Part shown: positions 44,415 to 52,710 of the stretch, one piece after another
How positions within the stretch are numbered: position 1 is the first letter of the stretch
Layout: every line of letters starts with the position of its first letter
From: Deltaproteobacteria bacterium
GTDB lineage: Bacteria; Desulfobacterota; Desulfomonilia; UBA1062
Assembly: GCA_029552245.1 (NCBI GenBank)
Contig: JAKPDW010000084.1
Span: 1 to 64,000, forward strand
Length of the DNA: 64,000 nucleotides
Direction: 5' to 3'
Translations under genes and position numbers: made by a program
The notes under the pieces: model-generated
The model's database searches: none
Seen by the model: only the letters and a program-made list of their open reading frames with translations
Told to the model about the DNA's origin: nothing

Positions 44415-45239
44415 TCACCCGTGTCTCGAGAGCCTGACGATCGCGTCCATGAGGGCCATGACCACGGACGGCGCGAGCCTCTTGGCTGCGAGGATCAGCT
44501 TGCCCTCCATGCCAGGCGTTATGAGGAACTTCCCCCTCGCCATGCCTGATACCAGGGCCTTGGCGACCGCATCGGGGCTCATGAGGCCGGCGCTCTTGCC
44601 GAGCGCCCTGGTCTCTGGCGGCTTGGTCCTGTTCTCGAACGCCAGGCCCGGGGTGTCCGTGTCGGGAGGGCACAGGACCGAGACCCGGATACCCTTCGGC
44701 TTCAGCTCCGCGCGAAGCGCCTCGGAAAGGCCGATCACCCCGAACTTGCTCGCGCTGTAGGCTGTGTAGCCGAACACCCCCAGGAAGCCCGCTATGGACG
44801 ACACCGTGACCACGTGCCCACCCTTGGCGTGCATGAGGGGGACGAGCACGCTCAGGACGTTCCAGGTCCCCGCGAGGTTCGTCCTCAGGGTCAGTTCGAA
44901 GTCGGATGCGCTGATGCGCTCGAAGTAGTCCGGGTACGCGATGCCGGCGCACGTGATGACCACGTGCGGAGGCCCGAAGGATGCCACGGATTCCCTGAGT
45001 TTGTCTGCGACCTTCTCCGTATCGGTGACATCCACGCTCGTGAACCCTATCCGCTGCGACGGGTCCGCCCTGTGGGGTTCGATCGATAGAGCGGCCTCCT
45101 CGAGCGCCTCCCGCCTCCTCGCGAAGATGAAGACGTTCGAACCCAGGCGCGCGAACTCCTTTGCACAGGCGAGCCCGATGCCGCTCGAGCCCCCGGAAAT
45201 GAACACGTTCTTTCCAGCGTAGAGCCCCGCAGTCGTCAT
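44415..45239 (-). CDS. Short-chain dehydrogenase resembling 3-ketodihydrosphingosine reductase
   Basis: The 274-residue SDR has the cofactor motif SGGSSGIG (15-22), the NAGT-like CAG and catalytic Ser-Tyr-Lys (VSSIAGF...YSASK). The late segment CPPDTDTPGLAFENRTKPPETR matches the YPPDTDTPGF-ENRTKP hallmark of eukaryotic KDSR, which reduces 3-ketosphinganine. ATG behind GGGAGGTG. A PlsC-type acyltransferase gene is divergent, but no serine palmitoyltransferase is in the window. It may act in sphingolipid synthesis or on another keto lipid. Confidence 0.85.
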   Translation of the reverse strand: MTTAGLYAGKNVFISGGSSGIGLACAKEFARLGSNVFIFARRREALEEAALSIEPHRADPSQRIGFTSVDVTDTEKVADKLRESVASFGPPHVVITCAGIAYPDYFERISASDFELTLRTNLAGTWNVLSVLVPLMHAKGGHVVTVSSIAGFLGVFGYTAYSASKFGVIGLSEALRAELKPKGIRVSVLCPPDTDTPGLAFENRTKPPETRALGKSAGLMSPDAVAKALVSGMARGKFLITPGMEGKLILAAKRLAPSVVMALMDAIVRLSRHG

Positions 45240-45630
45240 GGACACCTCCCTATGCCGGGCTGTGGTCGCATACCGCCGGTGTGCATGGTAACACGTTCCC
45301 CGTGGTTTAGCCAGGCCGCAGACGGCGGTCGAAGGCCTCGAGGGACGACGGGAGACGAGCCCCTTGGTGGATGCCCGGGCATGAGGCACGGCCGTCCTTG
45401 AAGAAGCCCGGGGCCGCCCCACGGCGTGAACGCACAGGGGGATCGGCGGGAGGCGCTAGGCGGCATGCAGGGGGAGGGGAACCCGCCGGCGAGGCGCGCC
45501 TCCGGTCGACCATCGATGCGGCCTCACGGGCCGCACCGGGCTGACCCCCTCCCTCGGGAGGTGCACGGCCCGTTCATGGCTGGTCGGGCCTTTCTCCTTC
45601 TACATGATCCTCACCGTCTTGAAGTTTCTG
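45240..45630. other. Divergent intergenic region between SDR and plsC
   Basis: About 390 bases between two divergent genes. A plsC promoter lies at its right end; an SDR promoter is not clear. In-frame codons continue upstream of plsC without a family match. Confidence 0.4.
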
Positions 45631-45658
45631 TTGAAGTCGTGATCCCGGTTGATATAAT
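45631..45658 (+). promoter_or_regulatory. Strong sigma70-type promoter just before plsC
   Basis: TTGAAG at 45631-45636, a 16-base spacer and a consensus TATAAT at 45653-45658. The expected start of transcription (about 45665) falls at the plsC ATG (45666), so the mRNA may be leaderless. Confidence 0.6.
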
Positions 45659-45665
45659 CGGCCCC

Positions 45666-46427
45666 ATGGGATCAACTCGTCGATCCTTGATCGACTCGGC
45701 GAAGGTTGCATGGATATCCTTGTGGGCGGCGATCGCGACCCTCGTGCTGTTTCTCCCCGTGACCCTCGCCGCACTCTTGAGCTCGACGGGAAACCTCGCC
45801 TTCAACCTCTCGAAGATATGGGCGTACGTGATGCTCGCGGTCACGAACGTGAGGCCTGTCATCAGGGGCAGGGAGAAGATCGTGCCCGGCAGGTCGTACG
45901 TGATCGTCAGCAACCACCAGTCCGAGTTCGATATCCTGGCCCTCGTCACGACACTTCGCATCCAGTACCGGTGGATCATCAAGAAGGAACTGCGCAAGGT
46001 CCCGCTCTTCGGCTACGCGCTGGAGGCCTCACGCAACGTCTTCATCGACCGGGGGGACCACGAGCGGGCCATGAGGAGCATCAGGGAGTCGATGGCGCGA
46101 CTGCCGGAGGGCGTGAGTGTGCTCTTCTTCGCCGAGGGGACCAGGTCCGAGGACGGGAGCATCGCCCCCTTCAAGAAGGGAGGGTTCCTCGTGGCGCTGG
46201 AGAAGGGCCTGCCCATCCTGCCCGTCACCGTGAACGGCAGCAGGAGGGTGCTGCCCAAGAAGAGCCTCGTTTTCACCCCAGGCCCCATCGAGGTGGTGGT
46301 CGCGGATCCCATCGACACGACCGGTTACTCCAGGGAGAACCTGCAGGAACTGGTCGACAGGACCAGGAGCGTCATCGTCGCCAACTTCGACCCCGAGTAT
46401 CCCTTCTCGCGGACCGGGCGGGCCTGA
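45666..46427 (+). CDS. plsC: 1-acyl-glycerol-3-phosphate acyltransferase-like (PlsC)
   Basis: The 253-residue protein has a membrane segment near residues 14-35, the acyltransferase motif NHQSEFD (HxxxxD) and FFAEGTRSEDG, then LPILPVTVNGS. It transfers an acyl chain to lysophosphatidate in membrane lipid synthesis. No ribosome site precedes the ATG, which sits seven bases after a TATAAT; an upstream GTG at 45639 is in frame but is not supported by a ribosome site. Divergent from the KDSR-like gene. Confidence 0.88.
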   Translation: MGSTRRSLIDSAKVAWISLWAAIATLVLFLPVTLAALLSSTGNLAFNLSKIWAYVMLAVTNVRPVIRGREKIVPGRSYVIVSNHQSEFDILALVTTLRIQYRWIIKKELRKVPLFGYALEASRNVFIDRGDHERAMRSIRESMARLPEGVSVLFFAEGTRSEDGSIAPFKKGGFLVALEKGLPILPVTVNGSRRVLPKKSLVFTPGPIEVVVADPIDTTGYSRENLQELVDRTRSVIVANFDPEYPFSRTGRA

Positions 46428-48516: not shown

Positions 48517-49329
48517 ATGCTCGTAGTCGCATGTATCAAGCAGGTGCCAGACACCACGCAGGTCAAGATCGATCCGGTCACCAACACCCTGGTCCGCGAG
48601 GGGATCCCCTTCATCATGAACCCCTTCGACACCCATGCCCTCGAGGAGGCCCTCAGGCTCAAGGACAGGTTCGGGGTGAGGGTGGCGGCCGTGTCCATGG
48701 GGCCCCCGAACGCAGAGATGACGCTCAGGAAGGCGCTGTCCCTGGGGGCGGACGAGGTGGTCCTCCTTTCCGACAGGGCCTTCGGCGGCGCCGACACGCT
48801 CGCCACGAGCATGGTCCTTGCGGAGGCGGTCAAGAGGCTCGCCGAGAAGGACGAGCTCGCGCTCGTGATCTGCGGGAAGCAGACGATCGACGGGGACACC
48901 GCCCAGGTGGGCCCCGGCATCGCCATGAGGTTGAATCTCGTTCCCTTGACCCTGGTGGACCGCATCGTGGATCTCGACCTCGCTGCCAAGACCATCGTGG
49001 TCAGCAGGAAGCTCGAGGCGCGTCACGAGATCGTGCAGTCGAAGCTGCCCGCGCTCCTCACGGTCGTCAGGGAGATCAACAAGCCCAGGTACCCCAGCGT
49101 CCCCATGCGCCTCGAGGCCCAGGACCTTCCGGTTCAGCTCTGGGACAACAAGGTCATGAACCTCGACGTGAACAAGATCGGGCTCAAGGGGTCTCCCACC
49201 GCCGTGCGCAAGATCTTTTCGCCCGAGCGCGAGCAGGGCGAGATCATAGGCGACGGGATGAAGGATCCCGAGGGCACAGCGAAGCTCCTGGTCGAGAAGC
49301 TCGTCCAGAAAGAGCTCCTGGCGCTGTAG
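48517..49329 (+). CDS. etfB: Electron transfer flavoprotein beta subunit
   Basis: The 270-residue EtfB (VACIKQVPDTTQVKIDPVTNTLVREGIPFIMNPFDTHALEEAL..., ICGKQTIDGDTAQVGPGIA) binds AMP and an FAD in EtfAB. It accepts electrons from acyl-CoA dehydrogenases or related enzymes. ATG behind GGAAGG. First gene of a three-gene operon with etfA and a membrane Fe-S oxidoreductase. Confidence 0.95.
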   Translation: MLVVACIKQVPDTTQVKIDPVTNTLVREGIPFIMNPFDTHALEEALRLKDRFGVRVAAVSMGPPNAEMTLRKALSLGADEVVLLSDRAFGGADTLATSMVLAEAVKRLAEKDELALVICGKQTIDGDTAQVGPGIAMRLNLVPLTLVDRIVDLDLAAKTIVVSRKLEARHEIVQSKLPALLTVVREINKPRYPSVPMRLEAQDLPVQLWDNKVMNLDVNKIGLKGSPTAVRKIFSPEREQGEIIGDGMKDPEGTAKLLVEKLVQKELLAL

Positions 49330-49382
49330 CACTCGGTGTGAAGGCCGGAACATAAAGACACAAAGAGACAGGACGACAGGAT

Positions 49383-50723
49383 ATGGACAAGCCGAAGAAG
49401 GTCAAGAAGCCGCGAGGTAGGGCGTCTCTCATTCCCAACAAGTGTATCGCCTGCGGGGCCCGGTGCCAGAGCTCCTGCCCCGTCGAGGCGATCGAGATGA
49501 ACGAGAAGGGCGAGCCGATCATCGACCAGGCAAAGTGCATCGGCTGCCAGAAGTGCATCAAGGTCTGTCCGGCGCAGGCCCTCGAGATGTACTTCACCCC
49601 CGAGGAACTCGAGATCCTCAAGCAGCTCGCCGCCGAGAAGGGCGCCGCAGGGGCCGAGGAAGAGGAAGACTCGGAAGAGGCGAAGCTCAGGAAGTACCTC
49701 GACCAGTATCGGGGCGTGTGGGTCTTCGTGGAACAGACCGACTGCATCCCGGCCAAGGTTTCCTGGGAGCTCCTGGGCGTGGGCGCCCAGCTCGCGTCGG
49801 CGCTGCAGGTGGAACTCTGCGCGGTGGTCCTCGGCCACAACGTCGAAAAGCTGTGCCACGAGGCGTTCGCCTACGGCGCCACCAAGGCATACCTCATCGA
49901 CGACCCCATCCTTCACCACTACCGGACCGCGCCCTACGTGGAAGGGTTCTGCTCACTGGTGGAGAAGTACAAGCCAGAAGTGGTGCTCATGGGTGCGACC
50001 GGCCTCGGCAGGGACCTTGCCGGCGCCGTGGCCACGAGGCTGCAGACAGGGCTCACCGCCGACTGCACCGGCCTCGGCATCGACGAGAAGAGACAGCTTC
50101 TCCAAACGCGACCCGCTTTCGGCGGGAACATCATGGCGACCATCTTCTGCGAGCAGAGGAGGCCGCAGATGGCCTCGGTGCGCCCGCACGTCATGCCCAT
50201 GCCGGCCAGGAAAGAGGGGGCCGAGGGGACCATCGTGCGCGAGACCATCAGCATGAAGGAAGAGGATATCCTCACCAAGGTCCTCGAGGTGATCACCGAC
50301 GCATCGCACAAGGACAGCATCGACATATCCGGCGCGGAGTTCATCGTGTCGGGCGGCAGGGGCATGATGGCGAAGGAGAACTTCAGGATCCTCCAGGAGC
50401 TCGCCGACGAGCTCGGAGGTGTGGTGGCGTGCTCCAGGAGCGCGGTGGACGCGGGCTGGATGCCCGTTGAGAGACAGGTCGGCCAGACCGGGAAGACGGT
50501 GAGGCCCAAGATCTACATCGCCTGCGGCATATCCGGCGCCATACAGCACCTCGTCGGGATGCAGGACTCAGATCTCATCATCGCCATCAACCGCGACAAG
50601 GAGGCGCCCATTTTCGAGGTGGCCACCTACGGGATCGTCGGCGACCTCTTCCAGGTCGTCCCGGCGATAACTGAGTACATCAGGAAGGCGAAGGCCACCC
50701 GGGGGACGCCGAAGGTCTGCTGA
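49383..50723 (+). CDS. etfA: Electron transfer flavoprotein alpha subunit with N-terminal ferredoxin domain
   Basis: The 446-residue protein has an added N-terminal domain with two 4Fe-4S motifs: Cys21-24-28-32 (CxxCxxxCxxxCP, one residue longer than usual) and Cys52-55-58-62. After an acidic linker (about 85-105) comes the EtfA FAD domain with FIVSGGRGM, VDAGWMPVERQVGQTGKTV and ISGAIQHLVGMQDSDLIIAINRDKEAPIF. The ferredoxin domain is found in EtfA of anaerobes. Between etfB and the membrane oxidoreductase. Confidence 0.95.
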   Translation: MDKPKKVKKPRGRASLIPNKCIACGARCQSSCPVEAIEMNEKGEPIIDQAKCIGCQKCIKVCPAQALEMYFTPEELEILKQLAAEKGAAGAEEEEDSEEAKLRKYLDQYRGVWVFVEQTDCIPAKVSWELLGVGAQLASALQVELCAVVLGHNVEKLCHEAFAYGATKAYLIDDPILHHYRTAPYVEGFCSLVEKYKPEVVLMGATGLGRDLAGAVATRLQTGLTADCTGLGIDEKRQLLQTRPAFGGNIMATIFCEQRRPQMASVRPHVMPMPARKEGAEGTIVRETISMKEEDILTKVLEVITDASHKDSIDISGAEFIVSGGRGMMAKENFRILQELADELGGVVACSRSAVDAGWMPVERQVGQTGKTVRPKIYIACGISGAIQHLVGMQDSDLIIAINRDKEAPIFEVATYGIVGDLFQVVPAITEYIRKAKATRGTPKVC

Positions 50724-50751
50724 TCAGGATACTACGAAAGAGGATACGTTC

Positions 50752-52710
<1,959 letters not shown>

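Follow-up and report, generated by a model that had tools for sequence, protein, structure and literature searches.

A gene in the window (the whole stretch of DNA analysed, 64,000 nucleotides of a deltaproteobacterium) encodes a classical SDR of the same clade as 3-ketosphinganine reductase-like (KDSR-like) enzymes that stand beside serine palmitoyltransferase (Spt) genes in other bacteria. Judging from sequence, we consider it slightly better than an even bet (probability about 0.55) that this protein is a KDSR-type reductase of long-chain keto lipids, uncoupled from de novo sphingolipid synthesis. Since the first enzyme of the sphingolipid pathway is missing from the bacterium and its family, the substrate of the SDR is probably some other long-chain keto lipid, or material that the cell has scavenged.

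Organization of the gene pair

The ORF listing and direct reading of the sequence confirmed the divergent gene pair described in the first-pass annotation: an SDR whose sequence contains PPDTDTPG..ENRTKPPET, and a PlsC-type acyltransferase (Table 1). The listed SDR ORF of 335 aa (44415-45422, reverse strand) is too long. Translation most likely starts at the ATG indicated in the table, because a GGAGGTG sequence is found just upstream and the homology of the relatives begins there. The acyltransferase probably starts at ATG 45666, not at the listed GTG 45426.

Table 1. Features of the divergent gene pair (positions in the window).
Feature	Position	Strand	Basis
KDSR-clade classical SDR, 274 aa	44415..45239 (ATG 45239, stop included)	-	ORF; Pfam adh_short (PF00106), 153 bits; alignment; model pLDDT 91
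Shine-Dalgarno-like GGAGGTG of the SDR	45243..45249 (+ strand: CACCTCC)	-	direct reading
GGSSGIG codons, cofactor-binding glycine motif, residues 16-22	45174..45194	-	(nearly) invariant in alignment
YSASK codons, SDR catalytic Tyr/Lys, residues 161-165	44745..44759	-	Y161 and K165 invariant in alignment
PPDTDTPGLAFENRTKPPET codons, KDSR-type post-catalytic motif, residues 191-210	44610..44669	-	alignments, sequence reading
PlsC-type 1-acylglycerol-3-phosphate acyltransferase, 253 aa, probably housekeeping	45666..46427	+	PF01553, TIGR00530, family-wide
Intergenic region separating the divergent genes	45240..45665	.	ORF listing, sequence

The SDR has the classical fold with GxxxGxG and YxxxK motifs. 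Downstream of the catalytic residues lie PPDTDTPG (residues 191-198) and ENRTKP (202-207), followed by PET. Seven residues of this region (P191, D193, T196, P197, P207, E209 and T210) are invariant across 19 aligned relatives, and the fungal 3-ketosphinganine reductase TSC10, a solved structure, aligns through the stretch; the post-catalytic motif is thus not due to chance. The predicted structure (pLDDT 91.2) is a classical SDR with two C-terminal helices. A structural search with this model gave SDR matches at Z about 30, with HSD17B13 and similar SDRs as the best at Z about 32; TSC10 was absent among the 50 matches listed, an absence that carries no weight of its own. The model confirms the classical SDR class, but it cannot tell a KDSR apart from further SDRs that handle lipids, nor does it decide on the substrate.

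Similarity of the SDR to KDSR

A profile of 19 SDR relatives ranked TSC10 (PDB 8jat) fourth of 683 PDB sequences, with 144.8 bits. Its alignment reaches profile position 238, passing through the post-catalytic stretch with an identical ENRTKP; the alignments of the three PDB rows ranked above it end at position 223 or earlier. Eight SDR loci of the genome entered a phmmer comparison with the TSC10 fragment (three weaker SDR matches without a locus were left out), and the window SDR came first, with 85.3 bits vs 60.5 and 41.7 bits for the runners-up. In a quick tree built without human KDSR and BT_0972, TSC10 sits on a long branch (2.5) and its placement is unsure. The closeness to eukaryotic KDSR therefore rests on motif and score. 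Homology of the SDR to KDSR is supported. Human KDSR presumably carries a post-catalytic motif of the same PPDTDTPG/ENRTKP type.

FabG and multifunctional enzymes of beta-oxidation account for many of the top PDB matches. They would fit an ordinary 3-hydroxyacyl-CoA dehydrogenase or 3-ketoacyl-thioester reductase (FabG- or HADH-like) whose KDSR-like motif is a mere clade signature, an alternative that we regard as unlikely but worth weighing. Against it, the SDR reached no NCBIfam equivalog, FabG models included: the best, PRK06181, scored 157 bits vs a cut-off of 215. Since the best models lie so far under their cut-offs, no named equivalog fits this protein.

Distribution and phylogeny of the SDR relatives

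The post-catalytic motif had been called rare in bacteria, a view that did not survive a search of the named genome collection. Relatives collected by either of two peptide patterns amounted to at least 562 confirmed sequences, of which we retained the best 80. In at least 41 of these 80 loci the SDR shows P-P-D-x-[DQN]-T-P or something close to it. The relatives come from, among others, Spirochaetes, Deltaproteobacteria, Chloroflexi, Cyanobacteria, Actinobacteria, Alphaproteobacteria and Opitutaceae. An SDR match at E<=1e-30 was obtained in 25 of 60 genomes (that of the window included), and 16 of the 24 genomes of the window's own family carry a motif-type SDR (17 sequences in total).

A second SDR subfamily shows PPEVDTPMN or a similar form; its member in the same genome lies on another contig (C2:33906-34667, 40%). 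This SDR (PGEVDTP form) is located just 3' of a large enzyme and its activase, whose translations read like a glycyl-radical pair (region L046:3653-8743). Homologues of both are also found near an SDR of the wider second subfamily in one family genome (G010, L069).

The window SDR belongs to a 29-row clade (SH-aLRT 98) together with the Spt-adjacent SDRs of L092, L119 and L095. In this tree, where the place of TSC10 itself is unsure, it is not set apart from KDSR-type enzymes. In a careful 36-row tree the 17 SDRs of the family do not form one clade, and the hypothesis of a family clade separate from the Spt-linked SDRs was rejected (AU p 0.002). Spt-linked and Spt-less SDRs are therefore intermixed, with inner supports that are partly weak. 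Fifteen mostly Bacteroidota loci (L156-L170) were placed elsewhere in the tree, and no alpha-oxoamine synthase (AOAS) gene was found beside their SDRs.

AOAS genes beside the SDR in other bacteria

An AOAS gene lies within 1.5 kb of the SDR and on the same strand in 20 of the best 80 related loci, and farther away in 5 more; genes in the fetched loci were called with a simple frame-score script, and their ends and some frames are approximate. In Spirochaetes and in one deltaproteobacterium, SDRs of the clade directly adjoin Spt-type genes, and the PPDTDTPGLAFENRTKPPET-type motif is present in these Spt-adjacent SDRs as well. Six AOAS neighbours were scanned. The Spt model NF047600 was the best model for four of them, at 445-518 bits for a cut-off of 640 (488-518 bits for those in L092, L119 and L102), and BioF was the best match of the other two. 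In a spirochaetal locus (L095:3752-6923) a GNAT gene that is bacterial ceramide-synthase-like, the SDR and Spt follow each other with gaps of less than 10 bp as called. This run has the look of a full ceramide operon in which a KDSR-type reductase replaces the CerR-type one.

The partners of the AOAS differ from locus to locus. A clade SDR follows an acyl-AMP ligase/ACP and an AOAS in two cyanobacterial loci (L107 and L117), and a PKS and an AOAS in two others, one cyanobacterial and one alphaproteobacterial (L124 and L144). Since such different systems supply the AOAS, the clade SDR tracks the AOAS product. This repeated adjacency, like the TSC10-like post-catalytic motif, is foreign to FabG and argues against an ordinary fatty-acid enzyme. 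The four loci (cyanobacteria, Rhizobiales) are in themselves candidate sphingoid-like natural-product lines.

At the genome level, some AOAS was detected in 40 of the 41 genomes behind the related loci that were searched (L148 was left out), and a strong Spt-like gene in 16 of the 41, including all 11 Anaerolineae of one clade, a frequency that refers to SDR-bearing Anaerolineae only. Strong Spt-like genes were defined as those scoring at least 487 bits, the limit being set at the gap from 487 to 445 bits; no match passed the curated 640. The search covered nine named genomes of the 29-row clade; a strong Spt-like gene turned up in four of them, only a weaker AOAS in another four, and no AOAS in one (the L097 genome).

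Absence of AOAS from the genome and its family

The search for an Spt homologue was negative in the genome of the window, which is 99.32% complete, and in the other 23 genomes of the family; no other AOAS was found in these 24 genomes either. PF00155 gave 9 matches in the genome, of which the 8 that became loci were classified (the ninth, on C72, scores 26 bits). All 8 score best as aspartate-type or related aminotransferases, HisC, DAP aminotransferase, a MocR-type regulator or a sugar aminotransferase. The best score of NF047600 in this genome is 16 bits. The AOAS model TIGR01825 matched none of the 24 family genomes at E<=1e-15, some of these being down to 77% complete; it matched 18/18 genomes of another family of the class, 13/18 in other families and 8/14 control genomes. 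This model also covers 8-amino-7-oxononanoate synthase-like proteins, and since none of the 24 genomes (G000-G023) matches it, the family may lack biotin synthesis or carry it out in an unusual way.

With AOAS absent from so complete a genome and from its family, it is very unlikely that this organism makes sphingolipids de novo by the known kind of pathway, and we rejected this reading. The KDSR-like character of the SDR, as first proposed, is borne out by its motif, its TSC10 match and its clade; the accompanying hint at sphingolipid synthesis in the organism fell with the absence of Spt. A reading in which the bacterium makes its sphingolipids de novo and the PlsC-type neighbour acts as the pathway acyltransferase has the clade of the SDR and the adjacency of the two genes in its favour. 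It is already largely refuted by the missing AOAS and by the distribution of the acyltransferase described below, and is highly improbable.

Gene neighbourhood of the SDR

The PlsC-type assignment of the neighbouring gene stands, with 91.8 bits for PF01553 (cut-off 23) and 102.7 bits for TIGR00530, just under the cut-off of 102.95. Its use as a marker of a sphingolipid locus does not. At 65% identity or more, the acyltransferase is present in 19 of the 24 genomes of the family, and in five of these 19 (G001, G006, G010, G017 and G018) a motif-type SDR is missing. In the Spt-bearing locus L095 the acyltransferase beside the SDR is a GNAT, not a PlsC. We therefore rejected PlsC as a sphingolipid gene; found family-wide and also where the SDR is missing, it is probably an ordinary phospholipid enzyme. 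Adjacency of the two genes was seen in the window's own genus alone; they are divergent in the window and likewise in G002 and G003. The two genes of G004 lie at contig ends, which fits the divergent order, and those of G011 share a contig with other genes between them.

Some neighbours of the SDR point to fatty-acid metabolism and hence to the FabG- or HADH-like alternative: a long-chain acyl-CoA ligase gene lies directly 3' of the SDR in G003 and G004, a CoA-ligase-like gene is found nearby in G002, G003 and G011, and genes whose translations read as EtfA- and EtfB-like stand near the SDR in the window. However, the neighbours of the SDR vary between genera, which speaks against this alternative. 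The region 48517-52710 of the window contains, from translation reading, EtfB-like, ferredoxin-EtfA-like and large Fe-S oxidoreductase-like genes in a row, the set-up of an acyl-CoA-oxidising anaerobe.

CerR is an epimerase-type protein and is not known as a classical SDR. An HpnA-like epimerase gene is located near the SDR in seven genomes (G002, G003, G005, G014, G020, G021 and G023) and by the PlsC-type gene in G004 and G012. As a candidate CerR it was rejected: it is 27-29% identical to the Spt-cluster epimerase and was matched to HpnA. In genus g4 (L058, L059, L063, L064 and L065) the SDR region forms a conserved cluster, with genes read mostly from their translations as an AraC-type regulator, an HpnA-like epimerase (not seen in L058), a sugar-kinase-like gene, and glutamate-semialdehyde-aminotransferase-like and RuBisCO-like genes.

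A GNAT-PAP2 pair elsewhere in the genome

Contig C32 of the same genome carries a PAP2-superfamily gene (270582-271505, forward strand) convergent with a GNAT gene (about 271802-272920, reverse strand; L177:8583-10921). The convergent pair occurs in 8 of the 24 family genomes. In two genomes of the same phylum (G048 and G051) it flanks an epimerase-type gene and Spt, and in G045 the Spt, GNAT and PAP2 genes lie on one strand. GNATs of the same family adjoin SDR-Spt in L095 and occur in the L119 region.

These observations are consistent with a salvage or Spt-free sphingoid metabolism, in which long-chain bases from outside, or a base made by a non-AOAS enzyme, would be processed by the SDR and would receive an N-acyl chain from the GNAT, which is bacterial ceramide-synthase-like, and a head group from the PAP2 protein. 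We regard this as improbable. The GNAT of the genome is just about 32% identical to the L119 GNAT, a Spt-region GNAT (reference bCerS was outside the comparison). The SDR and the pair are located on different contigs, and 6 of the 8 pair-bearing genomes have a motif SDR vs 16 of 24 overall; as this is no more than expected, there is no real association between them. If true, the scheme would amount to a bacterial sphingolipid salvage route, the very existence of which is called unclear in a portion of PMC11324152. A role close to sphingolipids is still to be reckoned with, because the pair occurs beside Spt in two genomes of the phylum. That the family, without AOAS, forms ceramide-like lipids with bases taken from neighbours that produce sphingolipids, or with an unknown base made without an AOAS, seems to us a shade less probable again than the salvage scheme.

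Proposed role and implications

As a KDSR-type reductase of long-chain keto lipids, the SDR would use NADPH, the cofactor suggested by the Arg-rich stretch FARRRE after strand 2, and reduce a long-chain lipid, probably one held in the membrane, at its 3-keto group to the alcohol. In other bacteria, SDRs of the clade would serve an AOAS by converting its alpha-amino-ketone into an amino-alcohol. With no AOAS partner in the family studied here, the substrate would most likely be another long-chain beta-keto lipid from acyl-CoA metabolism, which the long-chain acyl-CoA ligase gene directly 3' of the SDR in G003 and G004 would fit as well. In the open-licence papers searched, no activity was found for any member of the clade. 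The substrate cannot be read from the sequence, since reductase candidates with conserved residues are often inactive: an excerpt of PMC11211663 reports that, among 12 candidate reductases from one species, all with their active-site residues conserved, only 3 showed activity.

A KDSR-like gene alone is thus poor ground for calling sphingolipid synthesis. In bacteria whose Spt is not clustered with CerR, the missing reductase could be a KDSR-clade SDR of the kind found next to Spt in Spirochaetes, Anaerolineae, cyanobacteria and a deltaproteobacterium. Going by titles and the first lines of abstracts in the open-licence literature, we found no description of such an arrangement of a KDSR-type SDR and Spt in Spirochaetes or Anaerolineae. 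A family in which the reductase and, in part, the GNAT-PAP2 pair persist without Spt is a natural setting in which to learn how these enzymes are used when a home-made sphingoid base is lacking.

Comparison with known systems

The window SDR resembles eukaryotic KDSR/FVT1 and TSC10 (8jat) in being a classical SDR with the same catalytic residues and an ENRTKP-type motif. It differs from TSC10, which reads PCGISGPG where the window SDR has PPDTDTP, and from eukaryotic KDSR in that its own organism provides no Spt partner. Bacteroides BT_0972, likened here by description only, is an SDR that reduces 3-ketosphinganine with NADPH and is not clustered with Spt, according to parts of PMC9278070; its organism has Spt, whereas that of the window has none.

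Assembly lines offer a second comparison. The AOAS of the PfSgaAB lipid assembly line, as outlined in PMC12134224, yields an intermediate that resembles 3-ketosphinganine. In L107, L117, L124 and L144, clade SDRs come after comparable lines built of a PKS or acyl ligase and an AOAS, unlike the window SDR, which stands without such a line.

Caulobacter CerR and bCerS are described in PMC11087976 and PMC11324152, in extracts of which CerR is the enzyme of keto reduction that accompanies Spt and ceramide synthase. A Black Sea study, in the part of PMC11334938 available, counts Anaerolineae and Desulfobacterota among the likely producers; it also suggests that non-homologous proteins may replace bCerS and CerR in some groups. 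In G048 and G051 the Spt cluster has an epimerase-type gene in the position of CerR (Pfam Epimerase for G048); unlike these clusters, L092, L095 and L119 have a KDSR-clade SDR beside Spt.
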